Source: Lunularia cruciata (lineage: Eukaryota; Streptophyta; Marchantiopsida; Lunulariales; Lunulariaceae). From it: DNA of 64,000 nucleotides. The stretch is from NCBI GenBank assembly GCA_948567375.1, contig OX419760.1:15562001-15626000 (forward strand). The letters run 5' to 3'. A program made the translations under genes and the position numbers. Under the pieces are notes generated by a model. That model was not told where the DNA came from and did no database searches. It saw nothing but the letters and a program-made list of their open reading frames with translations. Positions 12,913 through 59,221 of this stretch are shown piece by piece (positions within the stretch are counted from its first letter, which is position 1; every line of letters begins with the position of its first letter).

Positions 12913-12933
12913 ATCAACATTTGCATGTTTCTT

Positions 12934-14043: not shown

Positions 14044-14046
14044 CCA

Positions 14047-15363: not shown

Positions 15364-15374
15364 ATCTATGGATG

Positions 15375-30356: not shown

Positions 30357-30361
30357 ACATC

Positions 30362-31724: not shown

Positions 31725-31729
31725 CTAGG

Positions 31730-39169: not shown

Positions 39170-40403
39170 ATGACAATCACCTATGTGGAAGGTAAGAAGC
39201 AACTTGCAGATGCATTCACCCGCATGCCAATGGCAAACAACTTGGTGGTAGAGGTTAAGATTAACCCTGAATTTTGGCCAAAGATTCTGGCTGCTACAAA
39301 AACTGATCTACAGATTGTAGAAGCGCAATCATCCAAAGGTGTCACCAACACCCAAGGACTCACCTTTCGGGATGGTAGATTATGGATCCCAAATGTCTCA
39401 GAATTACACACCACCATCCTAGCGGAATGTCATGATTTGGCCATTGTAGCTCATGTCAAAGTGGACAAGACCTAGGATGCAGTCAAGCGCCATTACTATT
39501 GGCCCAAGATGAGCAATGATGTGATGGACTACGTGCGTAGCTGCCTACTTTGTCAACAAAACAAAGCTTCTAATCAAGCTCTTGCATGGCTCCTTCAACC
39601 TCTCCCCACTCCTACCCAATGTTGGGAACAAGTGAGTATGGATCTCGTCTGTGAATTACCCAAGACCACCTCATGGTTTGACTTCATCATGGTCTTTGTG
39701 GACCGGCTCAGCAGAATGATTCATGTACGCCCTACCACCAAGGAGGTGACCGCTCCACAACTAGCTCAATTATACTTAGATGCAGTCTTTGCTCACCTTG
39801 GCTTGTCTAGAGTACTCATCACTGATAGAGGCACCCAATTCACTAGTTTGTTTTGGCAAACACTCTTTGGTTTCTTCAAAACCAAGTTGACCATGTCCAC
39901 AGCTTACCACCCACAAACAGATGGCCAAACAGAGCGGGCTAATCACATGATTGAAGACATGTTATGCGACTTCACCTTAGAAGAACAAGAGAGGTGGGAC
40001 ACCCTTCTCTCGTTGGTGGAATTTGCTGACAACAATTCAGTGAATGCATCCACCCAGGTCACTCCGTTCTTCCTCATGTATGGTGAGCATCTCTTCACAC
40101 CTTCTAGCCTGATGAAGATCCGTCTTGTGGCTACCAAGGTTGATGCAATCAACACATTTGTTTCTAAAATCCAACAAGGTGTAGAGAGCGCCAAACACAG
40201 ATTACAGATTGTGCAAAATCGACAAAAGCAGTATGCTGATGCACACTATAGGCACATGGATTTCAATGTTGGGGATCAAGTGTGGCTATCAACAACCAAC
40301 CTCACATTACTTGGACCTCGTAAGCTCAGACCTCGTTTTATTAGGCCTTTCTCAATTCTTTGTTGTGTCGGCACGGTGGCCTATCACCTTGAGCTACCAC
40401 CAC
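39170..40403 (+). pseudogene. pol: Chr-2 integrase core
   Basis: One stop (39473) splits two long frames. The first (39170-39475) ends RNase H and starts the zinc-finger His pair (AECHDLAIVAHV). The second (39509-40408) has CLLCQQ, the catalytic residues in SMDLVCELP, TDRGTQFTS and TDGQTERANHMIED (D, D, E all present), and the C-terminal GDQVWLST and GTVAYHLELPP. The CC-A insertion cuts it here; the frame continues in phase at 44143 once one ACCAC copy is discounted. Confidence 0.92.
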
Positions 40404-43400
40404 TATGACAACCCGGCAAATATCACTTTTGCGGTAATTGAGTAAGTAAAGTTTGTTCCCGCAGAGATACGAGTCAGAAATGTCCAAATACAAAGCAAAG
40501 TAACAATTTAGTTCTTCTTGAGTTCTTCTTTAGTCTCTTAGGTAGAAACCACACCCAGAAGAGAGTAACAAGCACTGACTTGTAGTCTTGTCACAAATTA
40601 ACACTCCTTAATCACAAATCCTTCAATTCTTTCCAAACAATCTTGATTGTGATGATTCAGGCTCTCCCGAAAACGGCACTTCACTGCAAAACAACTTTGC
40701 CTCAGAATTGTGTTCCACCCCTCCGCTGAAGGCACAACTTCCTCGATCAAAATTGCTTCACATCAACTTTGCACTACACTCACAAATGTAGAATACTACC
40801 AACACTACAATTCCTCCCAGATCTGTCAAGGCATTGCTTCGATTGCACTTCACTAAGGATCAAACACACAAAATGAAGATCAAGGCTGTGGAATCCAACA
40901 TCCAACAAGCACTCTAACTTGCACTTTGAATTTCTCCACACATTCACAAACATAAACACAAAGTTGATACTCGGAATCAAGCTCAAGCGACAAGCACTAC
41001 TTCACAACACTTTGCTTTATCTATACTCAAAAATAATGAGCACTAAAAAACATCTGACTGCGAATGCCACTCTTAAATAGTGAAGCAATCGACAGTTCTA
41101 ACAACTACACCGTTCTACAAAAACTCTTCTAACCTGCAGATCCGAAATGACAATGCACCTCTTCATATCTACCTCTTCAAATCTCAAATCTGTTACTAAT
41201 CCGATCTGATGTCTACTTCTTCCTCGGCTTTCAAACCTGAACCCGAAGTAATCTTATTTCCTACTATCTTTTCCTCGGGTTTCAGATCTTCTACTTCTTC
41301 TACTAGATCTAGCAATTCTCTTTCCTGATCTGAAATATCACTAATGGGTAATCTATCTAACTCCTTATCTCCCGACCCACTCTTCTCTAATGTCTCTGAT
41401 GGTAACTCTGAAGACATTTGGACTCCTATGTTATCTACTTTGGGTTTTGCTCTAACATCCTTCCAAAGTTTTTTTTACTCTATTTTCACTAAGTCTAATC
41501 TAATTGAAATGTTATCCTCTACCTCTAAAACCTTTCTGTCTACACGAGTTCTTAGTTTTATTAACAAGGCATTCATCTCAGTGTCTTTTGCTTGTCTGTG
41601 CCTCGTCTCCTGCACCAACAGCTTTAACTTGTGTAGTCGTGCTTCTTCAATTCAAATGCTGGCTTCTGTACTTAACATCACGTTCACCTTGAGGACTATC
41701 TCCTTCAATGGCTCCAATCTTGTCTTCCTTTCTTGATCCCGATCTGCAAGCCATTCTTCTCGTTACATCGCCAACTCTGCCTTGAACTCGGCTTTCACCG
41801 TCTCCTTCTCCTTCTCCTTCTGTACAACTTTTTCTTCCTGATTACGAAGTAACTCTTGTAATCTTTCTTCTTCTCTATACCGCGTAACCAACTCTCTTTG
41901 CCAGAGTTGCTTCTTCTCCTCCATACTCTCCATCACTCTATCGAGCTCTTGATCCTTTGCTGCTCGCCATAACATGGATTACTTCTACTCTTGAATCAAC
42001 AAATTGTTGCTTCAAGATTTTGAATTCAGCTACCTATCTCTCTCTTGCTATGTCACTTTTCTTCACAAGATCCTCTCAATAATTTACTTCTCTCTTCAGG
42101 TCTTCAATTACCTGACTTCTCTCTACTGCTTCCGCTTGCAGTACTTCTCTCTCCTCCTCACCTTGGGTTATACTTTTCTTCAACTCCAAGTTCTCTTCTT
42201 CTAATCTCGATAAGACCTACAAAACAGTCTTCACCTCTGGACAAGTCGACTGCATCTCCTTCTTCTTGTACTCCAATTTCACCAACAGAGGACACACCAC
42301 CTCTCGCAAGTAATCTACTCCATCACTGGCAACTACTTCCGCCCGCGGAGTGGTCTCTCTTCTGTCCTCGTGTTCTCTTGATACTCGCCTTCTTCTCTGG
42401 AGTCTTCGTATCAAGATTGATGCCTCACTTCTTGAGCTTTCTTCTACCTCTTTCTTCATGTTACTCGGCCCCGCTTCACACTTCGCCTTACATCTCGAGT
42501 GCACCCCTCGCTGCACTGCGATCTTCCTTTCCTCGGGCACCGGAACTTTGTTTTCCAATGGCAAGTTGTCTTCGGCCTCCAACTCAGCTTGCACTTCTTC
42601 TTCTTCTTTGTTAGCTGTTGGCACCGATGTCATCTCTCCTCCTTCTTCACTGTCGCTGCTCATATCTCCACTCTGCAATGTCAGCTCAGGTTCCTCCTCA
42701 TGTTTTGAGTCCTCCGTCTTGAGCTTGGCCTCGCCTTTTGAGTCTTCATCTTCCGACTCAATTACCACCATACTTTGCCTCGGGTTACTTCTCTATATCT
42801 TCCATCTTCTTTGTCGGGGTACTCACTATGACCTCCACGTTCTTTCCTATCTTTGCGTAGTAGTTGTCGGTGCTCCGGATTTGGAGAATGTACTACTGCT
42901 CCTCAACATCCACCTCCTTTCGCACATCAGGATGGAAGTGCAACACCATCCGAGTCCGCTCCACCGAGGTCAGTAAATTGAGCCTAAGGTAGAACTGTGC
43001 TGCAAACGGCACAATGTAGTGTGGAGGCAACTTATCCCGCAAATTCCACACCATCTGCCTTGTTCTCCCGTGAAAACACCTCGCCCAATTGATAGGTTCT
43101 CCTGCAAACAACTTATGGAAGAACATTGCTTGGTGTTTCATCACATAAGTCGTTCTCTCTGGCTTCAAGATTGCCATGAGAGCACTCACGATCCCTCTCT
43201 TCACTGGATCCTTGTAACTCTCAACTTTGTACCCATTCTTTGTTCTTTTCGATGAGAAGGCATCTCTCACCTCTTGCGTCTCTTGGGCTATCTCTCCTTT
43301 CCCCAAGAACATGGCTCCCTGCTCCAAGCTTGCCTCCTTCCCGAGTACAAGTCTCCAATCCGACTCTGTCTAGCGAGCTGGATTTCCTCTCTTCACTTCT

Positions 43401-44137
43401 TCCTCGGGTCCATCGAGACACTTACTCTCAATGATTTCTGTCATGAATCCTGGAAAACTCACGTTCCAATTCCATGCCAGAAATGTGATCCGAAGTTGGC
43501 TCAAGACTTTGATCCTCGCTATCACATCTAATCTCCGAATTGCATGATTTCTCATTGCAAATTTGGAATTCTTCTTCCCTCCTCCCATCTCTTCTACTTT
43601 CTCACTTTCTCTTGATTTCACTCTTGCGACTTTGCCCTTGTGCACTAACATGAGTCCAACTCTATTCCCCTTTCCCCAATCACCTACAAGGCGACTCCTC
43701 AACGGCAAAGGAAAATTGCTCAACATTTCGTTGTTGCAGTTTTGAGTTTTATGGAGCTGAGCTTCTTTGTATTCCGTCACTTTGAGTTCCTACCGAGAAA
43801 TCACACCTCCAACATGCACCTGTCACTGTCAATCAACCTTTGCGCGTATGAGCCGCCAGTTTTCAAACGGCCCCTTCTTGAATTTCTCGCCCCGACGAAA
43901 GGTTGTTAGACTGTCTTCACCTCGGGTTGAGCTCCCCCCAATCCAAAGACAATTTACTTTGGGTTGTATGCTGATAGGACATTTCCGAGTACTTTGCCTT
44001 ATGACCCGAAGTCACTTTACTTTGGGTTTCATCCCAAAGACTCCTTTCTTTGCTTTCTTCGGCCATACAAGCGCAATCCGACTTCTCTATACAACTTCTT
44101 CTCCTTTATTTTGAAAAAAAAAAATGTGGGCACCACA
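40404..44137 (-). mobile_element. CC-A, full-length CC element (3.73 kb)
   Basis: Minus-strand orientation. The plus strand begins TATGACAACCCGG and ends TGTGGGCACCACA. It is flanked by a perfect 5-bp duplication ACCAC (40399-40403 and 44138-44142). The first and last several hundred bases do not resemble each other, so there are no LTRs, and beyond TGTG there is little terminal inverted repeat. It holds the CC ORF (43588 to 41196) and a ~790-base 3' region next to the left end. Confidence 0.92.
41196..43588 (-). pseudogene. CC-A coiled-coil ORF, broken
   Basis: Same protein as CC-B. Start at MGGGKKNSKF (43588). The N-terminal conserved domain continues through 43327-42893 (GYKVESYKDPVKRGIVSALM, FFHKLFAGEPINWARCF). 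The acidic middle lies at 42771-42217 (VIESEDEDSKGEAKLKTED), with the coiled coil in pieces at 42200-41440 and the C-terminal tail at 41417-41196. Frameshifts near 42790 and stops at several points. A TGA at 41652-41654 falls at the same codon as in CC-B and CC-D. TATA-like CATAAAAC at 43747-43754 lies about 160 bases upstream of the start. Confidence 0.85.
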
Positions 44138-44142
44138 ACCAC

Positions 44143-44453
44143 ACATGAAGATCCATCCAGTGTTCCATGTCTCCCTACTATGTAGATATGCTCCCCGATC
44201 AGGCCAGGGTCATTCCACACAAGACATTCAACCTTGTCGGTCACTCATTGATGGCACAAAGGAATATGAAGTGGAGCGGATTCTCCAAAAATGCATGCGT
44301 GTTACTCACCATCCACGGGTGGAATATCTAGTACAATGGAAAGGTTACCCCCTCTATGAAGCAACATGGGAGCCCACTGCCAATTTGGCACATGCACCGG
44401 TGTTGGTGCAAGCATTTGAACAACAATTGCACAACGAGGACATTGCATCTTAA
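44143..44453 (+). pseudogene. pol: Chr-2 integrase C-terminus with chromodomain
   Basis: Reads HMKIHPVFHVSLL, a linker, then the chromodomain EYEVERILQKCMRVTH, VEYLVQWKGYP and EATWEP (about 44268-44376), ending at the TAA at 44451. The aromatic residues of the methyl-lysine cage are at least partly present (Tyr, Trp, Trp). Chromodomains steer chromovirus integration to particular chromatin. It is the 3' half of the integrase split by CC-A. Confidence 0.92.
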
Positions 44454-44466
44454 AAGGAGGGAGGTC
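44452..44466 (+). other. Polypurine tract, Chr-2
   Basis: AAAAGGAGGGAGGTC directly before the LTR start TGTAATACC, the usual primer for plus-strand DNA synthesis. Confidence 0.75.
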
Positions 44467-44690
44467 TGTAATACCAAGAGCTAGCCATATGATCTAGATG
44501 TGAAATTTGGTTTGGTAACATCTAGAATGATGTTATACAGGATGGTTTAAATAGATAAGATAGAAGTATCACCAAAAGAGTACTTCTACTAATAGGGCAG
44601 AAACCAAAATAGACTTGAGAACCTTAGAACCAATAGTTAGACATATGATTTAAAGGTGAGAATTGGTTTGGTAACATCTGGGAGGATGTT
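44467..44690 (+). repeat. Chr-2 3' LTR, first part
   Basis: Starts TGTAATACCAAGAGC and aligns with 33901-34080 of the solo LTR. An internal partial repeat of TTTGGTTTGGTAACATCT occurs near 44507 and again near 44660. Cut at about 44690 by AthL-5. Confidence 0.8.
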
Positions 44691-45188
44691 GTGGCTTTCC
44701 CTCCAATCAAGTAGTGTCTAAACTTCTTGAGACCAAAGATCACTACCAACCCTTCTCTCTCCATGACAAAGTAGTTCTTTTTTGTTGTAACCATTTGCCT
44801 ACTATCATAAGGTATTGGATGATCATGCCCATCTTGGTGTAATTGACTAAGAGTGTATCCTATAGCTACACTAGAAGCATCAGTGTAGAGGATGAAGGGC
44901 TTACTCCAATCAGGTTTAGCAAGAATTGGGGTTACAAGAAGGGATTGCTTGAGCTACTCAAAAGCTTTGAGAGCCTCCTTGTCTTCCAAAATCACCATGT
45001 AATCTACACACTTCTTCATGTAGATGGTCAATGCACAAGCCATGTTGGAAAATTAGAAGATGAATCTCCTGTAGTACCCAACCATTCCCAAGAATTGTTG
45101 TAACTTTGTCAAGCTTGAAGGGAATGGAAGGTCTGAGATTTCCTCACCTTCTCAAGATCAACTACTATTCCATCCTTGGAGATGATCT
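44691..45188 (-). pseudogene. pol: AthL-5 RT-RNase H, distal part
   Basis: Minus-strand remnant homologous to 13060-13545 of AthL-3. It covers the RNase H start (complement of the FILYTDAS region near 44880) and the RT thumb (GYYRRF near 45070), and stops at the GATCT flank of CC-B'. Several in-frame stops. Confidence 0.8.
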
Positions 45189-45574
45189 TGTGGTACCCGC
45201 ATTTTTGTTTTTTTCATATTTCTGAAGAAGAAGTGTACAGAAGAAGTCAAATTGTGCTTGTATGGTAGAAGAAGGCAAAGAAAAGTGTCCTCAAGGTGTA
45301 ACCCAAGGTAAAGTGACTTCATGTCAGAAGGTGAGGTACTCGGAATTGCCCTGTCAGCATACAACCCAAAGTAAGGTGACTTTGTCTCAGAGGTGCTCAA
45401 CGCAAGGCAAGGATAGTGTAACAACTTTACTTTGGGGCAAGACATTTAAGAAGGAACCATTCACAAAACCGGTGGTCATATGCATGAAGGACAATTGATA
45501 ATGACAAGAGCATGCAAGAGGTGTGATTTCTTGGTAGAAACTCAAAGTGAAGAAAGACGGAGGAGACACGCCAC

Positions 45575-45582
45575 TATAAAAT
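45575..45582 (+). promoter_or_regulatory. Candidate TATA box of CC-B'
   Basis: TATAAAAT, about 386 bases from the element start and 173 bases before the MGGG start. The spacing matches TATAAAAA in CC-B (47245-47252). Confidence 0.5.
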
Positions 45583-46970
45583 TTGGGCTAGAGACGAAGT
45601 GATGACAAGCACTTTTGAATCACCATTAAGAAGTCATCTTGCAGGAGATTGTGGGAAGGCACACTAGTGTATCAAGAGGAAGTCAAGAGAGTTAATCCGG
45701 GAATCCATTGGAAGAATAATCCCCAACCCAGAGTGGAAGAGAGAAAGATGGGAGGTGGGAAGAAGAACTCCAAATTCATAGTGAGAAATCTTGCAATTTG
45801 GAGGTTAGATGTGATTGCAAGAATTGAGGTCATGAGCAGGCTTCGGATCACATTCTTGGCATGGAATTGGAATTTTAGTTTTCTAGGTTTCATGACTGAG
45901 ATCATCAAGAGTAAGTGTCTTGATGGCCCTGAAGAAGAAGGGGAGAGAGAAAATCCGGATTGATGGACAGAGTCAGATTGGAGATTAGTACTCAGGAGAG
46001 AAGCAAGCACAGAGTAGGGTGCCACGTTCTTGGGGAAGGGAAAAGTAGCCAAAGAAATCCAAGAAGTGAGAGATGCCTTCTCTTTGAAGCGCACAAAGAA
46101 TGGCTACAAGTGGAGAGCTATAAGGATCCTGTCAAGAGGGGGATTGTGAGTGCTCTAATGGCAATCTTGAAGCCGGAGAGAATGACTTATGTGATGAAGC
46201 ACCAAGCAATGTTCTTCCATAAGATGTTTGCAGGAGAGCCGATTAATTGGGCAAAGTGTTTCTATCAGAGGACTTGATAGACTATGCAGAATTTGTGAGA
46301 CAAGTTGCCGCCACATTACATTGTGCCATTTGTAGCCCACTTCTATCTAGGGCTGAACTTGCTCACTGCAGTAGAAAGACACAAGATGGTAACCCATTTC
46401 CGCCTAGACTTGCGAAGAGATGTTGATGCAGAGGAGCAACAATACATCTTGCAAATCAAGAGTAGTGACAAGAACTACGAGCAAACGGGGCAGAGTGTGC
46501 AAGTGAAGGTGAGTACTCCAAAGTCAAAGAAGAGGAGTCAACAAGGAGAAGAAGAAGAAGTAGAGAAAGCGCGACCTCGGAAAGCTAGAAAGGTGAACCT
46601 GAGGAGAGAACTGGTGGTAATTGCATCACCAGACAAAGAATCGGAAGGGGAGGCTGAGTGCAAGTCTAAAGGCTCAGAGAAGGAGGAAGAACCCAAGTTC
46701 ACACTTCACAGTGGGGACACAAGTAGTGCCAATGATGAAGGAGTAGAGATGCAGTTGGTACCCAAAGAGGAGGAAGCCAAGATGGAGACTAAGGAGAAAG
46801 GTAACTCAAAACTAGAAGACAAAGTTCTAGAGCAGGAGGAAAAGAGAGTAACAATTCTATGGTGCCCACATTTTTTGTTTTTTTCCAAAATAAAGGAGAA
46901 GAAGTGTATAGAGAAGTCGGATTGCGCCTGTATGGCCGAAGAAGACAAAGAAAATTGTCTTTGGGGTGAA

Positions 46971-46994
46971 ACCCGAAGGAAAGTGACTTCGGGT
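46971..46994 (+). other. Inverted repeat in the CC-B 5' region
   Basis: ACCCGAAG (46971-46978) and CTTCGGGT (46987-46994) around an 8-base spacer. A second pair CGAAG...CTTCG lies at 47037-47054. Related CCGAAGT...ACTTTGGGT strings recur in the CC-A 5' region (43915-44035). Confidence 0.6.
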
Positions 46995-47244
46995 CATAAG
47001 GCGAAGTACTCTGAAATGCCGTGTCAGCATACAATACGAAGTAAATTGTCTTCGGCTCGGGGGGAGCTCAACCCAAGGCAAAGACAGTCTAACAACCTTT
47101 CGTCGGGGCAAGAAATTCAAGAAGAGGCCGTTTCAAAATTGGCGGCTCATACGCACGAAGGTGGGGTGACAGTGACAGGTGCATGCCGGAGGTGTGATTT
47201 CTCGGTAGAAACTTGAAGCAACGGAAGACGAAGAAGTGCAACTC

Positions 47245-47252
47245 TATAAAAA
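47245..47252 (+). promoter_or_regulatory. Candidate TATA box of CC-B
   Basis: TATAAAAA, 387 bases from the element's 5' end and 165 bases upstream of the MGGG start codon. The same spacing is seen in CC-B' and roughly in CC-A. Confidence 0.5.
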
Positions 47253-47409
47253 TTGAAACTGCAACGATGAAATCTCAAGCAATTTTCCTTTGCCGTTGAG
47301 GAGTCGTCTTGCAGGTGATTGGGGAAAGGGAAATAGAGTTGGACTTGTGTTAGTGCGTAAGGGAGAAGTTGAGAGAGAAAAATTGAGAGACCAAAAGAAA
47401 GCAGAAGAG

Positions 47410-49845
47410 ATGGGAGGAGGGAAGAAGAACTCCAAATTTGTAGTGAGAAATCATGCAATTCGGAGATTAGATATAGTAGCGAGGATCGAAGTCTTGAGCT
47501 GACTTCGGATCACTTTTCTGGCATGGAACTGGAACGTAAGTTTTCCAGGATTCATGATAGAAATCATCGAGAGTAAATGTCTCGATGGTCCCGAGGAAGA
47601 AGGGAAGAGAGGAAATCCGGCTCGCTGGACAGAGTCGGATTGGAGACTTGTACTCGGGAAGGAGGCAGGCTCGGAGCAGGGAGCCACATTCTTGGGAAAA
47701 GGAGAGATAGCCCAAGAAACATAGGAGGTGAGAGATGCCTTCTCGTCGAAGAGGACGAAGAATGGGTATAAAGTTGAGAGCTATAAAGACCCAGTGAGGA
47801 GAGGAATTGTGAGTGCACTAATGGCCCTCCTGAAGCCGGAGAGAACTACCTATGTGATGAAACACCAAGCGGTGTTCTTTCACAAGTTATTTGCAGGAGA
47901 ACTGATAAATTGGGCAAGGTGCTTTCACGGAAGAACAAGGCAGATGGTGTGGAATCTGCGGGATAAGTCGCCTCCACACTACATCATACCATTTGCAGCC
48001 CATTTTTACCTCAGGTTAAATCTGCTCAATGTGGCGGAGCGTAATCGAATGGTGTCTCATTTCTATCTTGATTTGAGAAGAGAAGTCGACACGGAGGAGC
48101 AACAATACATTCTCCAAATCTGGAGCACAAACGATTACTACGCGAAGACAGGGAAGAACGTGGAGGTCGTTGAAAGTATCCCGACGAAGAAGAGAACTTG
48201 GCAAGCAGAAGCCAAAGAAAACAAGACACCTCGGAAAATGCAGAAAAATAACCCGAGGCGAGGAATGGTGGTGATTGAGTCGGAAGATGAAGACTCAGAA
48301 GGCAAAGCTGAGCTCAAGATGAAGGACTCGGACCGTGAGGAGGAACCTGAGCTGATATTGCAAAGTGGAGATACAAGTTGTGACAGTGAGGAAGGAGGAG
48401 AGATGACATCGGTACCAGCGGCTGAAGAATACGAAGAAGAAATGCAAGCCAAAGTAGAAACCAAAGACAATGCGGTGCTGGAAGACGAAGTACCAGTGTG
48501 CGAGGAGAAGAAGATCGTAGTACAGCGAGGAATTCGCTTGCAATGTAAGGCGAAGTGTGAAGTGGGACCGAGTAGAGTGAAGGAAGAAGTAGAAGGAAGC
48601 TCGGGCAATGAGGCATCGATTCCGATACAAAGACTCCAGAGAAGAATGCGAGTATCGGGAGAACACGAGGAAAGAAGAGAGACCACTCCGCGGGAGGACG
48701 AAGTTGTCAGTAATGGAGTAGATTACCTGCAGATGGTAGTATGCCCGCTGTTGGTGAAGATGGAGAAGAAGAAGAAGGAGATGCAGTCTTCTTGTCCAGA
48801 GGTAAAGACTGTGTTGCAGGTCTTATCAAGATTGGAAGAAGAAAACTCGGAGTTGAAGAAGAGTATAACCCGAGGAGAGGAAGAGAGAGAAGTACTGCGA
48901 GCAGAAGCAGTCAAGAGGAGTCAGGTAATCGAAGACCTGAAGAGAGAAGTGAGTTATTGAGAAGATCTTGCAAGGAAGAGTGACATCGCAAGGGAGAGAC
49001 AGGTAGCGGAGCATGAAATCTTGAAGCAGCAGTTTGCTGATTCAAGAGTCGAACTCATCCATGCTATGGCGAGGGTAGCATCGAAGGATCAAGAGCTCAA
49101 TCGAGTGATGGAGAGTATGGAGGAGAAGAAGCAACTTTGGCAGCGAGAGTTGGCTGCGAGATATAGAGAAGAAGAGAGATTACAAGACTTACTTTGTAAT
49201 TAGAAAGAGAAGGTTGCACAGAAGGAGAAAGAGAAGGAAGCGGTGAAGGCCGAATTTGAAGAAATATTGGCAATGTATAGAGAAGAATGGCTCGCAGATC
49301 GGGAACGCGAACGCAAGACAAGATTGGAGCCATTGAAGGAAATCGTCCTCAGAGTAAACGTGATGTTGAGTACAAAGGCCAGCGTTTGAATTGAGGAGAC
49401 GAGATTGCACGAGTTAAAACTGTTGGTGTAGGAAACGAGGCGAAGACAAGCAAAAGATACAGATTTGAATGCCTTGTTGATTAAATTGAGAACTCGTGTA
49501 GATAGGAAGATCTTAGAAGTAGAAGACAATATCGCGATTAGATTAGACTTAGTGAGAATAGAGTTAGAAAAGCTTCGGCAGGATGTTAAGGCAAAACCCA
49601 AAGTAGATAACATTGGGATCCAAATGTCTTCGGAGTTGCCCTCAGAGACATTAGAGAAGAGTGGGTCGAAGGATGAGGAGTTAGATAGATTACCCACTAG
49701 TGCAATTTCAGATCACGAAAGAGAATTGCTGGATCTGGTAGAAGATGTGGGAGATCTAAAACCCGAGGAAAGAATAGTAGGAAGTAAGATTACTTCGGGT
49801 TCGGGTTTGAAAGCCGAGGAAGAAGTAGACATTGGATCGGAGTAG
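47410..49845 (+). pseudogene. CC-B coiled-coil ORF, 811 codons, six stops, no frameshift
   Basis: Best copy of the CC protein. One reading frame from MGGGKKNSKF to VDIGSE, broken only by stops at 47500, 47722, 48958, 49201, 49387 and 49429. Residues ~1-240 form a conserved globular region (LRITFLAWNWNVSFPGF, VESYKDPVRRGIVSALMALL, FFHKLFAGELINWARCFHG, PPHYIIPFAAHFYLRLNLL). Residues ~255-400 are basic then strongly acidic (VIESEDEDSEGK). About 440-670 is heptad-type coiled coil (RLEEENSELKKSI, KEKEKEAVKAEFEE), then an acidic tail. No gag, protease, RT, integrase or known transposase motif seen. The N-terminal region recalls, weakly, plant transposon-associated domains of unknown role. Confidence 0.85.
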
Positions 49846-50645
49846 TAACTGATTTGAGATTTGAAGGGGTAGATATGAAGAGGTGCATTGTCATTTCGGA
49901 TCTGCAGGTTAGAATAGTTGTTGTAGAAACGGTATAGTTGTTAGAACTGTCAATTGCTTCACTATTTAAGAGTGGCATTCGCAGTATTATGTTGTTCAGT
50001 GCTCATTATTTCTGAGAATAGATAAAGCAAAGTGCTGTGAAGCACTTTGCGTCGCTTGAGCTTGAGCTTGATTCCGAGTATCAACTTTGTATTTGTGTTT
50101 GTGAATGTTTGGAGAAATTCGAAGTGCAAGTCAGTGTGCTTGTTGGATGTTGGATTCCACAGCCTTGATCTTCATTCTGTGTGTTTGATCCTGAGTGAGG
50201 TGCAATCAAAGCAATGCCTTGACAGATCTGAGAGGAATTGTAGTGTTGGTAGTAATCTGCATTTGTGAGTGCAGGGCAAAGTTGATGTGAAGCAATTTTG
50301 ATCGAGGAAGCTATGCCTTCAATGGAAGGGTGGAACACAATTCTGAGGCGAAGTCGTTTTGCAGTGAAGTGCCATTTTCGGGAGAGCCTGAATCATCACA
50401 ATCAAGATTGTTTGGAAATAATTGATGGAGTTGTGATTAAGGAGTGTGAATTTGTGACAAGACTATGCGTCAATGCTTGTTACTCTCTTCTGGGTGTGGT
50501 TTCTACCTGAGAGACTAAAGAAGAACTCAAGAAGAACTGAAATTGTTACTTTGCTTCGTATTTGAACATTTCTGACTTGTATCTCTGCGGGAACGAACTT
50601 TACTTACCCAATTATCGCAAAAGTGATATTTGCCGGGTTGTCACA
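49846..50645 (+). other. CC-B conserved 3' region, non-coding
   Basis: 800 bases downstream of the ORF stop, without a convincing frame. It is strongly conserved in CC-A, B', D, F1 and F2, including the short copies that have lost most of the ORF. This suggests that it carries cis sequences needed for mobility, or a 3' UTR. Confidence 0.6.
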
Positions 50646-52674
50646 AATTCAGAGGGGAGTTTGTTCTAGACGAAGAGCAAAGTATGAAGCAAGGCCGATT
50701 AAGGTAAGAGAAGTGGAGAGTGGATGTTTGGGGAGCAACAAATCCATTCCCATAAGGCGATTGCAGCTAAGAAGGCAAGAGTTGGGTGAGGAAGAGAAGA
50801 AGAAAGAGATATGTTTGCAAGCCAAAGTAATCCCAAGTGAAGGAGTAGAATATCTACGGGAGATTGTGTGCCCGTTGTTGGTGAAGTTGGAGCACAAGAA
50901 GAAGGAGATGCAGTCAAAGTGTCTGGAGTTGAAGACAATATTGTAGGTGTTAGCTCAACTAGAAGAAGAGAACTCAGAATTGAAGAAGAGTGTAATCTAA
51001 GGTGAGGAGGAAAGGGAAGTGTTACAATTAGATGCCGTAGTATAGAATCAAGTAATTGAGAACTTGAAGAGAGAAATGGGGAGTAGAGAGAGAATAATAG
51101 AGCAAATTGTCATAGCCAAGGAAGGACAAGTAGTTGAGTATGAAATCTTGAAACATCAATTTGTTGATTTGAAATTAGAGATTATCCATGCTATGGCAAG
51201 AGTAGCAAAAAAGGAGCAAGAGCTTGATAGAGTGATGGAGAGTGTAGAAGAGAAGAGCGGCTCTGGCAAAGAGAGTTGACAGTGAGATGTAGAGAGGAAG
51301 AGAGATTAAGAGAGTTACTTTGCAATCTGGAGGAGAAGATTGTGCAAAAGGAGAAGGAGAAGGAGACTGTGAAAGCCGAGTTCAAAGCAGAATTGGCAAT
51401 GTATCGAGAGGATTGGCTTGCAGATCTAGAATGGGAGAGAAGAATGAGACTGGAGCCATTGAAGGAGATAGTAACAAAGATGAACATTATGTTGAGTACA
51501 AGGAGGAGAAATGTGAAGGATAAAGATTTGAGTGCTTTACTTATCAGTCTCAGAACTTGTGTAGATAGGAAGATATTGGAAGTGGAAGAAAATATCACTA
51601 TTAGATTAGACTCAGTAAAATAAGAGATAGATAAACTTTAGAAGGATGTAAAAGCAAAACCCAAAGTAGATGGCATAGGAGTGCAGATATCTTTGGAATT
51701 ACCATCAGAGATATTATAGAAGAGTGGGTCGGAAGACAAAGAGTTAGAAGGATTACCCACTAGAGGAATTGTAGATCAGGAAGGAGAAGTGTTAGAATTA
51801 GTGGAGGAATTAGTAGATGTGAAGTTAACCCGAGGAGAACCCGAGGAGAAAGTTGTAAGTGAAGTTACTTTGGGTTTGGAAGCCGAGGAAGAAGTAGACA
51901 TCGGATCGGAGTAGAAACAATTTTGAGATAAGAAGAGGTAGATATGAAGAGGTGCATTGTTAGTTCAGATCTACAGGTAGGAAGAGTTGTTAGGAAATGG
52001 TATAGTTGTTAGTGACTGTCATTTGCTTCACTATTTAAGAGTGGCATTCACAATATTATGTGTTTAGTGCTCATAATTTCTGAGAATAGATAAAGCAAAG
52101 TGTTGTGAAGTAATGCTTGTCGTTTAAGCTTGATTCTGAGTATCAATGTTGTGTTTGTGTTTGTGAGTGTGTGGAGAAATTTGAAGTGCAAGTCAATGTG
52201 TTTGTTGAATGTTGGATTCCGCAGCCTTGATCTTCATTCTGTGTGTTTGATCTTGAGTGGAGTGCAATCGGAGCAATGCCTTCATAGATTTGAGAGGAAT
52301 TGTAGTGTTGGTAGTATTTTGCATTTGTGAGTGCAGTGCACTGTTGATGTGAAGCAATTTCAATCGAGGAAGTTGTGCCTTCAGTGGAGGAGTGGAACAC
52401 AATTCTGAGGCAAAGTTGTTTTGCAGTGAAGTGCCATTTTTTGGAGAGCCTGAATCATCACAATCAAGATTGTTTAGAAAGATTTGATGGAGTTGTGATT
52501 AAGTGTGACAAATTGAAATAACAAGACTACGAGTCAGTGCTTGTTACTCCTTTGTGGGTGTGGTTTCTACCTGAGAAATTAAAGAAGAACTCAATAAGAA
52601 CTACATTGTGACATTTGACTTTTTATTTGGACATTTCTGACCAGTATCTCTGCAAGAACAAACTTTATTGACTT

Positions 52675-52714
52675 GATTACCACAAAAGTGATATTTATCA
52701 CTTCTGTGGTAATC
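52675..52714 (+). other. Inverted duplication at the CC-B' 3' end
   Basis: GATTACCACAAAAGTGAT (52675-52692), a 4-base loop, then ATCACTTCTGTGGTAATC (52697-52714), matching in 17 of 18 positions. The second arm is absent from the other CC ends, so it is a local snap-back duplication. Confidence 0.8.
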
Positions 52715-52736
52715 TTTGCCAAGTTGTCACAAATGT

Positions 52737-53290
52737 GGACAAAAATTAGACCTTCTTCACATCCAAAAATGCACTTCTTTGGGTTGAGTGATGCATTTGC
52801 CTCATCCAAGCGTTGCAAGACCTAGGTGCTCAAAGTGCTCTTCCTTGCTCCCATAGACACAAAAGTCATCAATGAAGTCTCTCATAAATTTCCCAATGAA
52901 AGGTTCAAATACCTTGTTCATGAACCGTTGGAATGTGGCTGGAGCATTACAAAGCCTAAAAGGCATGACCTTGAAAGCATAAGTTCCCCAAGGTGTGGTG
53001 AATGTGTTGAGTTGTTGATGCTCTGGTGCAATCTTGATTTGGTTATATCCACTATAACCATCTCCAAAATTGTACCTCTCATGTCTTGCGACCTCCTCCA
53101 AGATCTCATCAATGAATGACAATGGGTAGTAGGCCTTCTTGGTAACAATGTTGAGCTTCTTGTAATCCACATATACTCAAAGCTTGCCATTCTTTTTCTT
53201 CACAATCACATTAGGAGACACCTTTTTTGAATTCTCCACCTCAAAGATAAATCTAGCCTCCTTGAGCTTATCAATCTCCTCCTTCACAAC
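52737..53290 (-). pseudogene. pol: AthL-5 reverse transcriptase, N-terminal part
   Basis: Minus strand. KLNIVTKKAYYPLSF, FGDGYSGYNQI, MPFRLCNAPATFQ (Gly to Arg) and DFIDDFCVYG with both catalytic Asp, then a small deletion near 52825 and KKCIFGCEEGL up to the CC-B' insertion. Stop in VCVDY near 53175. Confidence 0.85.
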
Positions 53291-54530
53291 CAAAGCTATT
53301 GGTGGGCTAATGCAATGTTGCTTTTGGCAAATTGGTCTTGCATGTGACTCCACCTCTTGTGCTCCTCCAAGGTGACTTCCTTTAGATCCTTGTAACTAAA
53401 AGCAAACACATAGCTGAACTTGTGGAAAATCTCTTGAAAACTCACCTTTTCCTCCTTGGTAACATTTGGACCATATTTGAGGGTAGATAACCTCATCTGT
53501 ATCTCCTTAAGTGTCAATGGTGATTATCTGGGTCCTTCAAGATCTTTGGCTAAGGTGCAAAATCCATAGCACCCAAGGGATACACATCTAAATCAGATTC
53601 AAATTCATCTTGCTCCATGGAACTCTCCTCTTCCATGCTTATGTCCATACCTGAAGCTCCTTCCTTAGAATTTGATTCCCAATAATCAAAAGATGGTGTA
53701 TCTAAATGGGAAGTGTTGGTGGTGTTAGTTAAAGGAATTGTGACTCTATGGTTTGATTGCCTAATCCTCAAGTATCCTTTGTGCCATCACTAATGTGTGA
53801 TGCTCTCAACCATGGCCTCCCAAGAAGTAAGTCATAGCTTGAATCCTTCAAGACTTGGAAAGTCATGAGAGTTTGAACTCCCATAATTGAAACTAACACC
53901 TTATCCATCACCCTACTGGTCAAACTTGTTGCTTGTTTCCCATGCTCACCACAAATATTGAAGGTCTTGAGGGTATCATACCCAACTTCTTCATAACCTT
54001 TCTGACATGGCATTCACTACAGATCCTCCATCAACCAATATATCTTTGATGTTGTGACCATTCACTCTCACATCATTCTTGGAAGCATATTCACAAGCAC
54101 CCCATGGTGTCGTCGGCTTGGCATCCAGCACCCTTGATATTGGAGCTTTTTCCTTCTTCTTCCTCTTGCTCCTTGTAGGACTCAAACCACCTCTAAGTTC
54201 CTTTCTCAAAGTAGGATTCAAAGCAATCTATTTTCCCACTATCATGTTAGCCTTATGACTACCAACATTGTAGTTCCATTGTTGCTTTGAGATCAAGAAG
54301 TCCTCTATCTCCAACTTCTTCCTTGGAGTCTTTGTTGTTGATGGTATTGAAGTGCTTGTGCAAGTGCTGCTTGTAGGCATAGGAGTATCTTGGCTAGGAG
54401 TAAATCCTTGAGAAGAGTGCACATCCTCTACAAAACAAGATCTCTTCTTCTCTTGTGCCAAAAGATCCAAATAAAGACCTTTGGAGTTTGAGCACCCTCC
54501 CCTTCTCATACTTACTTTCAACCACATCTA
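53291..54530 (-). pseudogene. pro: AthL-5 protease and linker
   Basis: Fragments in order on the minus strand: Ser/Thr-rich N-part (54527-54228), DILVDGGSVVNAMS protease core (54013-54080), LLLGRPWLRA (about 53810-53840), the acidic linker (53771-53550) and the RT approach (53517-53296). At least four frameshifts or stops. Confidence 0.8.
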
Positions 54531-55529
54531 TAGATACTATCTCTTTACCTTTGTTTGGATTAGGAGTCACTTGGGTTTTACTATCTCCATCTTTCCTTCT
54601 ATTGGCTCTCTCATAACTCCTTCCTCCATGGTAAGTGGAATTTGGGCAATTTCTTTGGACATCGCCTCTTCCTCCACAACCAAAAAAATTTCTATCATTG
54701 AAATTGTTTGTTGGTTGGACTCCTCTATATGGATAGTTTCCATAACTCCTAAGTCCTCTCCCTTCATTCTGATCCACCTCTCTCTCCTCCCATAGTTGCA
54801 CCACATTGATCTTGAGATATGCAAGTTATTCTGTGATGGTTTGAAGTGGATCTTTTGGTGGAGGTGCAAGAATTGGAGCAACTACTACTTGTGGTGCAAC
54901 CCTTGCCACCAAAGTATCAGAAGTTCCACCATACTTGTAGCCTTGAGGAGGATGCACAACCTCCTTCACCACCAAATCACTCTCATCTCCTTCCAAACTC
55001 TCCTCCATACAAATTGCAATCTTGATAGCTTCAACCTTGGAAGAAGGTTTCTCATATCTCACCTTGCTTCTAATTTGTGGTCTCAACCTCCCCACAATAT
55101 TCTTGGTGAGCATGGCCCATATGCCAATCATAGTAGTCTCCACATCATCCCCACCCTTCCTCAACACTATGTGAAATTTGGACTCTAACTCTTTCACTCT
55201 TTCTACATAGACTCTCACTTTCTCTCCATCTCCTTGCTTGAGAAAGGTAACCTCACCCATCAATCTCTCATAACTCTCATCTAGAAGAAAGTTCTCAATG
55301 AGTGTTGAAGTCCAAATCTCCCAAGACTCTTCTTGCCCATCTCTCCTCTCTCTCTTTTGGTATTCTAACTCATACATGTAAGTGCTGCATCCTCAAAGAA
55401 ATCTGGTGATAATGAGACTCACTCATTCTTCCTCCTCTCATTGCTTCCTTTGCAAGCTCTCTTGAAGTCTCTCACAAAAGCCGCCACATCTTCTCCATCC
55501 TTGCCAAAGAAAACCGGAAGTTTCCTCAT
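54531..55529 (-). pseudogene. gag: AthL-5 Gag
   Basis: Starts MRKLPVFFGKDGED at 55529. A frameshift near 55377 is followed by a long capsid stretch (55377-54826; FLKQGDGEKVRVYVERV, IGIWAMLTKNIVG) and the Gly-rich tail with FFGCGGRGDVQRNC, where the knuckle His has become Asp. The knuckle is therefore dead in this copy. Confidence 0.83.
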
Positions 55530-55779
55530 CTTAACCCCTCACTATCTTTCTTTTCTCTCAATTTTTTCTTTTTTTCTTTTTTTCTCTCTCTATAACTAAT
55601 AGAGTATATACATGACTAACAAAATTTGAGAGTACTCCACCTTAGGGAACACAAAAGGTTTAGTTTGCTCCAAGATTTCTTTAACAACATCAAATCCTAG
55701 AGTGCATATTAAATGATCTCTCATGGATAGTTTATTCATAAATTGAAAGATTATCTCCATCAATAATCTTGAGAACTAG

Positions 55780-56240
55780 CTGATGAAGGTGGTAGTATTT
55801 ATGTAGCTGTACTAAGACTCTCTCCAAGATCTTTCCCCAAAGTCTCCAAAAATGCTTTTACTCCACTACCCTCATATCCTTTTGGAAGTCCTTCCACTCC
55901 ACAAACCTCACACAACTCCTTGGTCTTAGATCTTCTCCCTCCAAATCTTGGTTAAGAAGGTCCAACATGCAAACCCAAGTCAAGTAAGCCTCTCCTTTCC
56001 CTCAACCTCTTGCTCTCAAAACTCAATGGACATGAACTTGCTTTATGTCCCTTCTCTCTATATAGAAAGCACTTAGACTCACCCTTTCCTCCAAGTGGTG
56101 TAATTTTTTGGATCCTCTAAATACTCTTTTCAAATTCTATTCTAAACTCTCTTTTCCTCAAATCCACCCCTACAATCACCTCAAACACTTGGGGAACCTT
56201 GCATAGCCTCAATTTCCACTCTTGGTGACCTTCCATGTTC
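55780..56240 (-). pseudogene. AthL-5 CCHC ORF, badly decayed
   Basis: Minus-strand counterpart of 16602-17075, recognisable from the C-terminal PSSAS region (55780-55800) to the EGHQEWKLRL start near 56235. Multiple frameshifts. Confidence 0.65.
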
Positions 56241-57127
56241 CCAAGATGAGTCTAAACACTCAAACATTTTTTTTGTTGCTCTCACAGTCCTCATGCATGA
56301 GATCTCAACTCTACAAAATTGACCTCTCCTCACAATGTCACCCAAAATATCTCAACTGGTATGTAGCAGTCCTTTGAAATTTTGCGCACATGATAACAAG
56401 TCTAGGGCATCTCTCCATGCAAAATTTCAAATCTTTTCATTTTGTCATTTGGCCTAGGCACTTTTCTATTCAGCACACATATTTCAGATTTGGTCTGAAA
56501 ACCACCCCCCTCACTTTAAGAACTCATAACTCCATGCGCAAGAATGATCTCTCTCTAATTTTTGTGGCATAAGGTATGATATAATGCACTAAATGCTATT
56601 GAAAATTTTCAGAAAATTCTACTAAATTTGAAGAAATGGTATACTCTATATAATTTTCCAGAGAGCATGCAATTGCAAGAGCAGTTTACCTTATTAACTT
56701 TCAAAAATTCTAGCTCAGTGTGCATAGTAGCTTTCACAATAATTTGAATGTGCTAATGGAAGGACAACCCAAGCTTTCATGTGTAGAAATTTCAAGTTTA
56801 GATCTCAAATATGAGATTTTGTCCAAAATCTCCTTTATCCCCAAAATCCACAATCTCTCCAAATCCTCTCATGTGTACAAGATGTACAAAATCACCTCAA
56901 AGATATCATAATGAACTACAAGATATACAAATGTGTCCTGCTTCTCTAACATAAGTTCAGTGCTCTCCTCCCCTAATGTTCTCTCCAAGTGAGCTCTCAT
57001 AGCCTCCTTCTGCCTAATGTAGAGTTAAACACAAGATAGGCAAGATAATGTTCTCTAAAAGGCAAGATAATGTTCCTACGGAACATTATCTTGCTTTTTA
57101 GAGAGGTCCAAGCAATGGAACCAAAAA
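56241..57127 (-). other. AthL-5 leader and primer site
   Basis: Non-coding leader. The primer site is on the minus strand at 57107-57123 (TGGTTCCATTGCTTGGA). Just inside it is a perfect 15-bp inverted repeat, GCAAGATAATGTTCC (57062-57076), TAC, then GGAACATTATCTTGC (57080-57094), plus a direct repeat of GGCAAGATAATGTTC at 57039. Other AthL leaders lack it. Confidence 0.75.
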
Positions 57128-57821
57128 TGTGAGCCGGCCTGTCTCTCACTCAAGATAAACCTCTAATGGCTAGTATAGTGGCACACCATGAACTAAGAAG
57201 GCAAAGAACTCCAACTCCATCATACTCCTCCAAGGCTAACACTCCAAGACTCAAGACATTGCTCACTAGAGAACTCAATGAGAGAGAGATAGTTGCAAAT
57301 GAAAGGATGATGAGTACCTCCTCACTCCATGTTTATATACTTATGAAATAGTTACACACCAAATTTACTAATTATTGGAGTAACTCAAGTTACTAGGCTA
57401 AAAGTCAAGTAAAGTCAAAAAGTAGAAAGAAATATCCATCCATATGGGCATATTCCACTAAGCATGTGATCTTAACTTGACCCAACCACTAAGTCAAGGA
57501 TTTCTTCACATGGGCTATCCTTGGACTATAGAAGAATCCAAAACAAAAAAAGGCTTACAGGCCCAAGAGTTCTCAACTCTTTCCTCAAAGCCAAACACCT
57601 AGAAATAATACCAAGTTAACACACTAGAATTCAATATAGTGGTGCTTATCTTTTCCACTTCCTCTAAAGTAAAGTTCTCACTATCTTAGCTATGACTCAC
57701 TTTCACTAATCATGACTAATGTAGAACTATCCTTTATCTCTATATAAATAATATCTCTCAAATTTTTGTAATACCAAGCTAAATATTATAATACCACACA
57801 CATGCACAAATGGGTGTTACA
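57128..57821 (-). repeat. AthL-5 5' LTR
   Basis: 694 bp, plus strand TGTGAGCCGGCC to GGGTGTTACA. More substitutions against the AthL-3 LTRs than 36308-36995 has. The right flank is CC-E. Confidence 0.92.
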
Positions 57822-58531
57822 AGGCCAAAGAACTTTGGGTGGAGGAAATTAGTCAGAGTAAGCACTCAAAGGCAATGAGGGAAGATTTGGTGAATTGTCC
57901 AGAGAAAGAAAAGGAGAAAATGGCATTTGTCAATGTGCTAGAGGGTGAAATTGATGATGCACAAGTGGAGCTGATACATTCGAAGGCAAGTGTAGTAGTG
58001 ATGAAGCAAGATTTGGAGAGTCTAAGGAAGAAGGCAGCCGATAAAGATCAAGCTTGGCAGCAGGAGTTGATAGAGCATAGTTGGGAGGAAGATTGATTGC
58101 AAGGATTGTTGAGGGTGACAAAAGATCAACTCGTGTTGAATCGACAAGAGAAAGAGGCTATGAAGGCTGAATTTGAGGACGAGTTGCAAATGTATCACAA
58201 TGAACTGGCAGAAGAAATAAAGAAGGAGAAGGTAGAGTCAGTGGTAGAATTTGACATAGTAGCGGCAGTGGCAAATGAGATGAAGGTGTTGCTTAGCACT
58301 AAAGTCAAAGGAAAGTTGGAAGAAGGCAAGCTACACGAGTTGAAGTTGTTTGTGCAAGAGATGAGGACAAGGAAGGCAAAGGACACTAAATTGAACAATT
58401 TGTTGATTTGTTTGCAAGATCATGTAGATAGGAAGATGTTAGAGGTAGTAGACAATGTCCATCTCAAATTAGATCTTGTTAGATCAGACTTGGATAGACT
58501 TCATAGTGAGGTAAAATTAGCAAGGAAGTCC
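57822..58531 (+). pseudogene. CC-E, coiled-coil fragment of a diverged CC element
   Basis: The plus strand reads 57839-58096, then, after a TGA at 58094-58096, 58097-58530 in the same frame. It aligns with the coiled-coil part of the CC-B ORF: VELIHSKASVV, KDQAWQQELIEH, KEAMKAEFEDELQMYHNEL, LHELKLFVQEMRTRKAKDT and DHVDRKMLEVVDNV. It has no stop at the site of the TGA shared by A, B and D. Both ends are cut by AthL LTRs in opposite orientation. Confidence 0.8.
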
Positions 58532-59221
58532 TGTAACACCCATTTGTGCATGTGTGTGGTATTGTGATATTTAGCTTGGTATTACAAGTACTTAAGAGAT
58601 ATTATTTATATAGAGATAAAGGATGGTTCTATATTAGTCATGGTTAGCTAAAGTTAGTCATAGCTAAGATAGAGGGGACCTTACTTTAGAGGAAGTAGAA
58701 AAGATGAGCACCACTATTTTGGATTTTAGTGTGTTGACTTGGTATTATTCCTAGGTGTTTGGCTTTGAGGAAAGAGTTGAGAACTCTTAGGCCCGCAAGC
58801 CTTTTTTTTTGGATTCTTCTATAGTCCAAGGATAGCCCATGTGAAGAAATCCTTGACTTAGTGGTTGGGTCAAGATAAGACCACATGCTTAGAGGAATAT
58901 GCCCATGTGAATGGATATTCCTTTCTACTTTTTGACTTTACTTGACTTTTAGTCTAGTAACTTGAGTTGCTACGGTAATTAGTAACTTTGGTACGTAACT
59001 ATTTCACAAGTACATAAACAAGGGGTGAGGAGGTACTCATCATCCTTTCATTTGCAACTATCTCTCTCTCATTGAGTTCTCTAGTGAGCAATGTCTTGAG
59101 TCTTGGAGTGTTAGTCTTGGAGGAGTATGATGTAGTTTGGGTCCTTGCTTTCTTAATCCATGGTGCACTACCATAATAGCCATTAGAGGTTCATCGTGAG
59201 TGAGAGAGAGGCCGGCTCACA
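58532..59221 (+). repeat. AthL-6 5' LTR
   Basis: 690 bp, TGTAACACCC to GGCTCACA. Primer site TGGTTCCATTGCCGGGA at 59226-59242, the copy closest to the tRNA-Asp complement in its second half. Confidence 0.93.

Follow-up and report, generated by a model that had tools for sequence, protein, structure and literature searches.

The ~3.75-kb units that recur in a 64-kb window of the Lunularia cruciata genome (the whole stretch of DNA analysed) are, judging from the full-length elements found elsewhere in that genome, the long terminal repeats (LTRs) of a Ty3/gypsy retrotransposon, and a protein gene of 811 codons lies within them. The usual view is that LTRs regulate without coding for protein and that a solo LTR is no more than a dead remnant; in this family, the LTR bears a conserved gene together with a candidate promoter of its own. 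The reading we favour, with a probability of roughly 0.7, is that of a giant-LTR Ty3/gypsy element carrying a selected gene in U3, which would be transcribed from a separate promoter and would encode an accessory protein.

Giant LTRs in the window

The initial annotation had listed five units of ~3.75 kb with TG...CA ends and 5-bp duplications, and had proposed that they were either solo LTRs of a giant-LTR retrotransposon or a self-contained transposon with unequal ends. This description holds for CC-A, located where an integrase frame of another Ty3/gypsy element ends, and for CC-B: both have TG...CA-type ends (one end being mutated in each) and perfect duplications (Table 1). CC-B' is a single older unit, with a DNA identity to CC-A of 74-83% over the longer aligned pieces; its flanks GATCT/AATGT match at three of five bases, a target duplication being plausible, not clear. 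The F1 and F2 units do belong to the family and do have duplications, one perfect and one at 4/5 bases, but they fall short of the announced length: the outer LTR totals ~1.84 kb (30356-29225 plus 27987-27279) and is interrupted by the nested one of 1.24 kb. Both have about the last 1 kb in common with the CC unit and lack most of the ORF; they are shorter relatives of the giant LTR. Of the gene region, the nested copy has kept roughly the final 70 codons, and the rest is absent. It also has the downstream TATA motif described below, and TATAAA was not found in it.

All complete insertions in the window are single units, as had been stated, and a repeat search of the window detected no direct repeat of at least 40 bp inside any one unit. 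The motif TGTGGTGCCCACA matched more often than chance predicts, five times with up to two mismatches (0.9 expected, no shuffle reaching five), and GGGTTGTCACA four times with up to one mismatch (1.24 expected, two shuffles reaching four), the latter being the weaker signal.

Table 1. Features of the giant-LTR family in the window and a full-length element in the source genome
Feature	Position	Strand	Description
Outer F-type LTR, 3' part	27279-27987	-	Downstream TATA motif present; outer duplication GATGT/GATGT
Nested F-type short LTR	27988-29224	-	1237 bp; ATAGT/GTAGT (4/5 bases)
Outer F-type LTR, 5' part	29225-30356	-	Duplication GATGT/GATGT shared with 3' part
CC-A	40404-44137	-	Complete solo giant LTR, 3734 bp; GTGGT/GTGGT on element strand (ACCAC on +)
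LTR-gene copy in CC-A	41196-43588	-	From ATG to TAG; frame disrupted by stop codons and frameshifts
CC-B' 5' part	45189-46857	+	Older subfamily LTR, split by CC-B
CC-B	46858-50645	+	Complete solo giant LTR, 3788 bp; AATTC/AATTC; inserted into CC-B'; gene ATG at 47410
Longest open segment of LTR gene in CC-B	47725-48957	+	411 codons
CC-B' 3' part	50646-52731	+	End ...GTTGTCACA, flank AATGT
Further partial giant LTR	60911-63999	-	CC-A positions 691-3734; runs past window end
Full element, source genome	C6:56577390-56600837		TGATTTTTGGTGCCGCTGCCGGGGA after 5' LTR; TTTGAGGGAGGGGATA then 3' LTR; outer flanks GTACA/GTACA

Full-length elements in the source genome

A search of the 566-Mb source genome with the 5' end of the unit scored 40 places among 4436 first-look candidates, one of them being the window's own, and these match its first 338 bases at an identity of at least 93%. 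The family is very abundant: 1842 junctions between the LTR and the primer-binding site (PBS) and 1563 between the polypurine tract (PPT) and the LTR were counted, with none for the reversed-pattern controls. As the giant-LTR proposal anticipated, units occur elsewhere in direct pairs around a primer site, gag-pol and a polypurine tract. The elements are ordered LTR-PBS-gag-pol-PPT-LTR and measure ~13.7 kb, with LTRs of ~3.78 kb each and an interior of ~6.2 kb; the PBS is presumably complementary to tRNA-Asp. Five direct pairs were examined, three of which are bounded by perfect 5-bp duplications (GTACA, AGAGG and AGAAG). In the tabulated C6 element, LTR identity is 94.2% for the main piece of 3584 bp and 91% for the last 203 bp; another C6 pair, with 6154 bp between its LTRs according to their coordinates, shows 94.3% identity over 2780 bp, the 3' LTR being truncated. 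Elements A (AGAGG/AGAGG), B and C (AGAAG/AGAAG) have LTR-LTR differences of 4.94%, 2.35% and 4.57%, respectively, and B is without a clean duplication because its 3' LTR end is altered.

The domain order is gag-protease-RT-RNase H-integrase. Pfam cut-offs are passed by the zinc knuckle, RT, RNase H and H2C2; matches to the gag core, the protease and rve fall short of them. In the tabulated element, the gag zinc knuckle exceeds the cut-off, the protease match is weak, and a frame of 450 codons matches RNase H-integrase proteins; this frame belongs to a 2980-bp stretch that shares 93.9% identity with a sister copy's pol, and RT, RNase H and integrase domains were called in the sister copies L014 and L022. 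A chromodomain was not found in the C-terminal segment of the integrase of copy L023, which gave only a weak SH3_Tf2-1 match. The full elements contain gag-pol and thus are not non-autonomous LARDs. The relatives found for pol suggest a liverwort host. Taken together, the PBS, the PPT, the gag-RT-RH-INT domains and the duplications identify the ~3.75-kb units as LTRs of a Ty3/gypsy retrotransposon. Solo LTRs comprise 11 of 20 units fetched elsewhere, in addition to the complete copies in the window, and most likely derive from recombination between the two LTRs of an element.

A gene under selection inside the LTR

The 811-codon ORF noted initially is intact in one genomic LTR, and the copies in the window are broken. 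The gene runs in the sense orientation from about position 552 to 2981, wholly within the LTR. Its start codon is present in all 26 aligned copies, of which a single one stays open for the 811 codons, the gene being broken in 25. In loci chosen by an exact junction alone (the first four listed of each type), the gene or a relative, at 39-82% amino acid identity, was present in 4/4 PPT-anchored and 4/4 PBS-anchored cases, and the ORF lay 3' of the PPT-LTR junction in all four of the former. Relatives of the gene occur in diverged LTR subfamilies. The pol frame of copy L023 extends to the PPT, and therefore no space is left for the ORF between the two.

In the 26-copy alignment, codon positions 1, 2 and 3 hold 242, 182 and 405 shared variants, as against 116, 132 and 110 singletons (p = 6e-9), and differences within the LTR pairs of elements A, B and C (88/99/78) show no third-position excess. 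Transversions alone are 1.88-fold at position 3. Compared with older subfamily copies, the gene has a dN of 0.20-0.27 and a dS of 1.3-1.7 (0.20 and 1.39 for the 5' part of CC-B', 0.20 and 1.31 for its 3' part, both against the CC copy L026), that is, a dN/dS of ~0.15 between subfamilies, while the other two frames yield 0.85-1.15. These values were counted from position 411 or 414, and therefore include the stretch 414-551, which has no coding pattern; a start codon at 414 was dropped in view of that and of the conserved ATG at 552. The substitution patterns thus indicate purifying selection on the gene while the lineages replicated, and none was detected after insertion.

When indels were recounted with each distinct gap pattern taken once, their lengths did not discriminate: multiples of three make up 10/31 inside the gene and 5/31 outside in 19 copies (p = 0.24), and 11/36 and 9/44 in 26 copies (p = 0.31). 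A first count made against one reference copy (29/55 inside vs. 4/58 outside) was withdrawn as coding support: it had been inflated, for the most part by 19 differences of six bases, which probably go back to a single event in that copy. In five pol stretches, the third-position excess is 1.27-fold and diversity is below that of the LTR gene, a pattern for which the model gives no explanation.

The encoded protein

No relatives of the LTR protein were recognised in Pfam or among PDB sequences, and Pfam gave no match to the plant mobile domain, Transposase_28 or the ATHILA ORF-1 domain; its matches to YwqJ-deaminase and ELL were weak. Protein-database searches with a 462-residue open segment (E up to 0.001, word-limited) and with an alignment of eight open segments (E up to 0.01, scoring the best 8000 candidates by shared words) returned no match, while the pol frame used as control gave 1066. 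Transposon genes are often omitted by annotators, and this lack of database relatives is weak evidence for that reason. The protein is strongly charged and is laid out as an N-terminal region, an acidic linker and a charged tail. Heptad periodicity as high as that of the middle segment appeared in 42 of 1000 shuffles (913 for the N-terminal and 686 for the C-terminal segment). The highest 19-residue hydropathy means in three open segments were 1.45, 1.15 and 0.71, all under the 1.6 usually taken as the threshold for a membrane segment. A tentative guess is that the protein is an accessory retrotransposition factor, perhaps nuclear, whose role may resemble that of additional-ORF proteins in other retroelements. 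More speculatively, the gene might have entered the LTR when a PPT arose upstream of an ORF originally located between pol and the LTR.

Candidate promoter motifs and a proposed transcription model

TATA motifs are found on both sides of the gene: TATAAAA at position 387, kept in 24 of 26 copies, and a downstream motif at about 3100, which reads TATTTAAG in 13 of 19 copies and TACTTAAG in six. From these motifs we infer the placing of R, U5 and both promoters. Genomic RNA is probably transcribed from the downstream motif; the gene would then fall in U3 and lie 3'-terminally in that RNA, beyond pol and the PPT. The upstream motif would serve a distinct mRNA for the gene, with ~135 nt of leader, and with such a promoter of its own any LTR, whether 5', 3' or solo, could be a source of the protein. 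It is conceivable, albeit doubtful, that every LTR, solo ones included, is a portable gene cassette, able by itself to transcribe the gene for an element protein that acts in trans. If so, LTR recombination would delete gag-pol and yet leave a source of the protein, maybe raised relative to gag-pol.

Alternative explanations

An unpaired unit with an ORF resembles a new transposon, hence the second option of the initial annotation. The single state of the window's complete units and the lack of internal repeats would agree with it, but units paired around PBS-gag-pol-PPT, with duplications on the outside, rule it out and leave it practically no probability. That the gene is a captured passenger or a chance open frame, with no function in the element, might be argued from its broken state in most LTRs, from the failure to find known relatives and from indel lengths that do not support coding. 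This is strongly contradicted by the third-position excess seen in shared and not in private variants, by the dN/dS between subfamilies and by the 8/8 junction-anchored loci that have the gene or a relative; transversions, LTR pairs, the other frames and the flanking LTR stretches likewise contradict a chance ORF or mutation artefact, and we regard the proposal as very improbable. The same low standing applies to an envelope-like protein that happens to sit in the LTR: its sense orientation and place after pol match the env-position ORFs described for plant elements (PMC7264820), but there is no strong membrane segment and the protein is strongly charged.

A more serious question is which TATA motif serves the genomic RNA. 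If it were the upstream one, the gene would lie in R/U5 and would open the genomic RNA as its first cistron, ahead of gag. The upstream motif is indeed closer to a TATA box and well kept, and a leader of this length to the conserved ATG would suit a capped mRNA. However, F-type LTRs with no TATAAA and without most of the gene have inserted, with duplications matching at 5/5 and 4/5 bases, and these keep the downstream motif; moreover, the genomic RNA would hold the gene twice and R would be very long. An upstream genomic promoter is consequently deemed unlikely, and the reading with the gene in U3 is preferred.

Comparison with known systems

The L. cruciata genome has been reported to be enlarged by Ty3/gypsy families in bursts, and the parts of that account available to us describe neither LTR structure nor an LTR gene (PMC9985172). 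Giant-LTR non-chromoviruses, with LTRs of up to about 5 kb, share with the present family the very long LTRs, the Ty3/gypsy pol and the 5-bp duplications, a likeness of traits and not a clade placement; an LTR protein gene is not mentioned in the portions seen (PMC6317226). In our case, most of the 3.8-kb length is due to the gene inside.

Plant elements with additional ORFs (aORFs/eORFs), such as Grande gene23, Retand/RIRE2 TRP28, the Ogre plant mobile domain and Athila ORF1 (PMC7264820), some with their own promoter and nuclear location (PMC7264820, PMC6317226, PMC11963269), likewise keep an extra gene beyond gag-pol across copies, often without outside relatives. As far as these sources were seen, such genes occupy the internal region, most of them following pol and preceding the 3' LTR; the gene described here, being part of the LTR, is duplicated in each element and retained in solo LTRs, surviving LTR recombination. 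Additional ORFs are also on record for rotifer elements (PMC5408684). Cer1 CERV of C. elegans is an accessory LTR-retrotransposon protein with predicted long helices and no obvious relatives beyond its host group, and its spliced mRNA has exons in common with gag; CERV resembles the LTR protein by description only, in the part of the source consulted (PMC10309623).

In literature judged largely on titles and the beginnings of abstracts, MMTV was found to have an LTR-internal ORF, and no plant element was. MMTV sag is a sense protein gene inside the LTR with a separate U3 promoter, P2, according to the part of the source seen (PMC9412291), and the upstream TATA motif would parallel the latter. 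MMTV is a vertebrate retrovirus with env, whereas the present element is a plant Ty3/gypsy with 811 codons in a 3.8-kb LTR, a protein matching no Pfam family above cut-off and a two-promoter use proposed from its TATA motifs. Repeat annotation that assumes non-coding LTRs may misclassify such elements, for which the giant LTR of L. cruciata would offer a plant counterpart to the MMTV U3 gene.

Solo and Paired Giant LTRs

The source genome (566 Mb in 74 contigs, eight large ones accounting for about 558 Mb) was searched, and 40 places were scored of 4436 first-look candidates, one of them being CC-A, a complete repeat unit of the window. Twenty stretches were fetched from these places, selected from those matching CC-A best in its first 338 bases, which skews the sample towards CC-A-like copies. 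Judged by their flanks, 11 of the 20 hold solo units (eight with perfect duplications, three matching at four of five bases). In six of the 20, the purine tract TTTGAGGGAGG(A/G)G(A/G)TA abuts the unit start, in two TGATTTTTGGTGCCGCTGCCGGGGA lies directly 3' of the unit, and one is truncated. The former is the polypurine tract (PPT) and the latter the primer binding site (PBS), which we take to resemble the tRNA-Asp type.

On one contig (C6), two units in the same orientation lie 20 kb apart, the first with the primer site, the second with the purine tract, and with outer flanks GTACA and GTACA. The interval holds a zinc knuckle of gag, a weak match to aspartyl protease and a pol stretch. A 450-codon frame of this pol stretch matches RNase H-integrase proteins, and as a whole it shares 93.9% identity with pol in the fetched stretch L023; in the sister copies L014 and L022, domains of RT, RNase H and integrase were identified. 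This element carries nested insertions: an F-type unit (a short LTR relative) sits within its 5' LTR, gag contains a ~690-bp unit, and a large element precedes the PPT. Its two LTRs share 94.2% identity in their main 3584-bp piece and 91% in the final 203 bp. A second C6 pair, its 3' LTR truncated, has 6154 bp between LTRs that are 94.3% identical over 2780 bp. Three further pairs (elements A, B and C), picked from exact junctions among the matches listed (first 100 per search), are separated by 6170, 6171 and 6192 bp, with LTR divergences of 4.94%, 2.35% and 4.57%; A (AGAGG) and C (AGAAG) have perfect outer duplications, and the 3' end of B is altered. Genome-wide, at most three mismatches being allowed, 1842 LTR-PBS and 1563 PPT-LTR junctions were counted, diverged subfamilies included, against 0 matches for the reversed patterns used as control. 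In L023 the pol frame extends as far as the PPT, and therefore there is no room for another ORF between them. Among named relatives of pol, those from the liverwort Riccia sorocarpa score best (67%); proteins of Marchantia polymorpha and Calypogeia fissa rank lower, with metagenome proteins interspersed. In the available text of PMC9985172, Lunularia cruciata is noted for Ty3/gypsy bursts.

Units of the Window

The initial annotation had proposed a family of ~3.75-kb units. CC-A and CC-B are indeed complete (3.73 and 3.79 kb), each with a perfect 5-bp duplication, and CC-B' stands as a third, older unit of ~3.76 kb interrupted by CC-B, its flanks matching at 3/5 bases. F1 and F2 do not have the proposed length: they measure 1.84 and 1.24 kb and have only about the last 1 kb in common with the CC units. 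The F-type LTR found in L018, inserted within another LTR, shares ~74% identity with the 5' portion of the outer F unit in the window; F-type LTRs, too, were thus probably mobile.

CC-A appears to have inserted at the end of an integrase frame, which stops at the CC-A edge. A ~690-bp stretch of the other Ty3/gypsy element occurs about ten times in the window. The distant LTR-protein relative adjoins a repeat of that element; it is probably the remnant of a further LTR subfamily.

Features of the window, of the giant LTR and of fetched stretches
Feature	Position	Strand	Remarks
CC-A	window 40404-44137	-	
CC-B	window 46858-50645	+	
CC-B'	window 45189-46857, 50646-52731	+	
Partial unit	window 60911-63999		extends past window edge
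Other Ty3/gypsy element	window 11775-18609, 22786-33018, 44689-45186, 52733-60911		several nested copies; hosts giant LTRs and F units
Other Ty3/gypsy element, gag	window 15375-16376, 54826-55377		
Other Ty3/gypsy element, pol	window 12934-14751		
Integrase of another Ty3/gypsy element	window 39476-40405	+	Pfam matches rve, H2C2, SH3_Tf2-1
Distant LTR-protein relative	window 57881-58564	+	38-41% amino-acid identity to middle and end
LTR landmarks	LTR 552 (ATG), ~2979 (stop), ~3775 (end)		
F-type short LTR	L018 7269-8475		antisense, within 5' LTR of full-length element
Diverged LTR subfamilies	L030 849-1313, L033 240-701		39-46% amino-acid identity (main match)

A Conserved Gene inside the LTR

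In 19 complete copies, a third-position excess runs from ~480-570 to ~3000 of the LTR, with little elsewhere except one flanking 180-base window (1.5-fold). When seven further LTRs were added, the ATG at 552 was present in 26/26 copies and the coding start was placed there; the stretch 414-551 had no coding pattern in these 26. The excess is 1.88-fold for transversions only. Comparison with older copies of the subfamilies (CC-B' and a copy in L011) gives a dN of 0.20-0.27 and a dS of 1.3-1.7, against ratios of 0.85-1.15 in the other two frames, and the median dN/dS among the 19 copies is 0.27. One LTR of element B is open across all 811 codons; the other 25 of 26 are broken.

Variants common to at least two of the 26 copies fall at codon positions 1/2/3 as 242/182/405, versus 116/132/110 for singletons (Fisher p = 6e-9), a set that includes LTR pairs of one element, by which some post-insertion variants change class. 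In the 19 copies, free of known LTR pairs and counted from 414, the figures are 185/147/303 and 135/152/164 (p = 2e-4). Differences within the LTR pairs of elements A, B and C are distributed 88/99/78. Selection on the gene thus operated during element replication, none being detected after insertion.

Indel lengths were dropped as coding support. Counted against one reference copy, multiples of three made up 29/55 inside the gene and 4/58 outside, a count that tallied single events repeatedly; for distinct gap patterns the difference was not significant (10/31 versus 5/31 in 19 copies; 11/36 versus 9/44 in 26). Since this evidence is secondary to that from substitutions, confidence in the readings is unchanged.

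A less biased view came from loci chosen solely by exact junction (the first four listed per search). All four PPT-anchored loci encode the N-terminal part of the gene past the junction (72-82% amino-acid identity), and in all four PBS-anchored loci the sequence ahead of the junction codes for a relative of the gene's middle or end (39-80%), DNA similarity to CC-A being limited to 187 or 587 bases in two of these. Because the diverged subfamilies in L030 and L033 have the primer-site junction in common, the gene inside the LTR is probably old.

Third-position difference is 0.144 for the LTR gene (LTRs of L014, L022, L023 and L012) versus 0.079 for pol, whose sample (L014, L022, L023, L024 and L029) comprises largely the same elements; the pol third-position excess in these five stretches is only 1.27-fold. 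It looks as if LTR and pol histories differ; the gap may stem from recombination among LTR lineages or from the LTR gene having had the longer history.

The LTR protein gave nothing above the Pfam cut-off, nothing in PHROGs at E 0.01 and no accepted match to PDB sequences at E 0.1 or 1, where the sole row (E 0.54) was taken as chance; none of the protein-database candidates that were scored proved to be a relative. A strong membrane segment was looked for and not found, and a heptad pattern in the middle part is marginal.

TATAAAA stands at LTR position 387 in 24/26 copies and, at ~3100, TATTTAAG in 13/19 and TACTTAAG in 6/19. Both F-type LTRs of the window retain the downstream TATA motif, and TATAAA is absent from both. 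The downstream motif would thus act as the genomic promoter and the upstream one as the gene promoter, which would place the LTR gene in U3.

Comparison with Known Systems

The additional ORFs of plant elements are described, in the available text of PMC7264820, PMC6317226 and PMC11963269, as lying in the internal region, whereas here the gene is inside the LTR. In this it resembles MMTV, whose Sag sits in U3 with its own promoter (PMC9412291, available text). Set against both, the element therefore follows the usual replication scheme of Ty3/gypsy elements but carries a conserved gene within its LTR.
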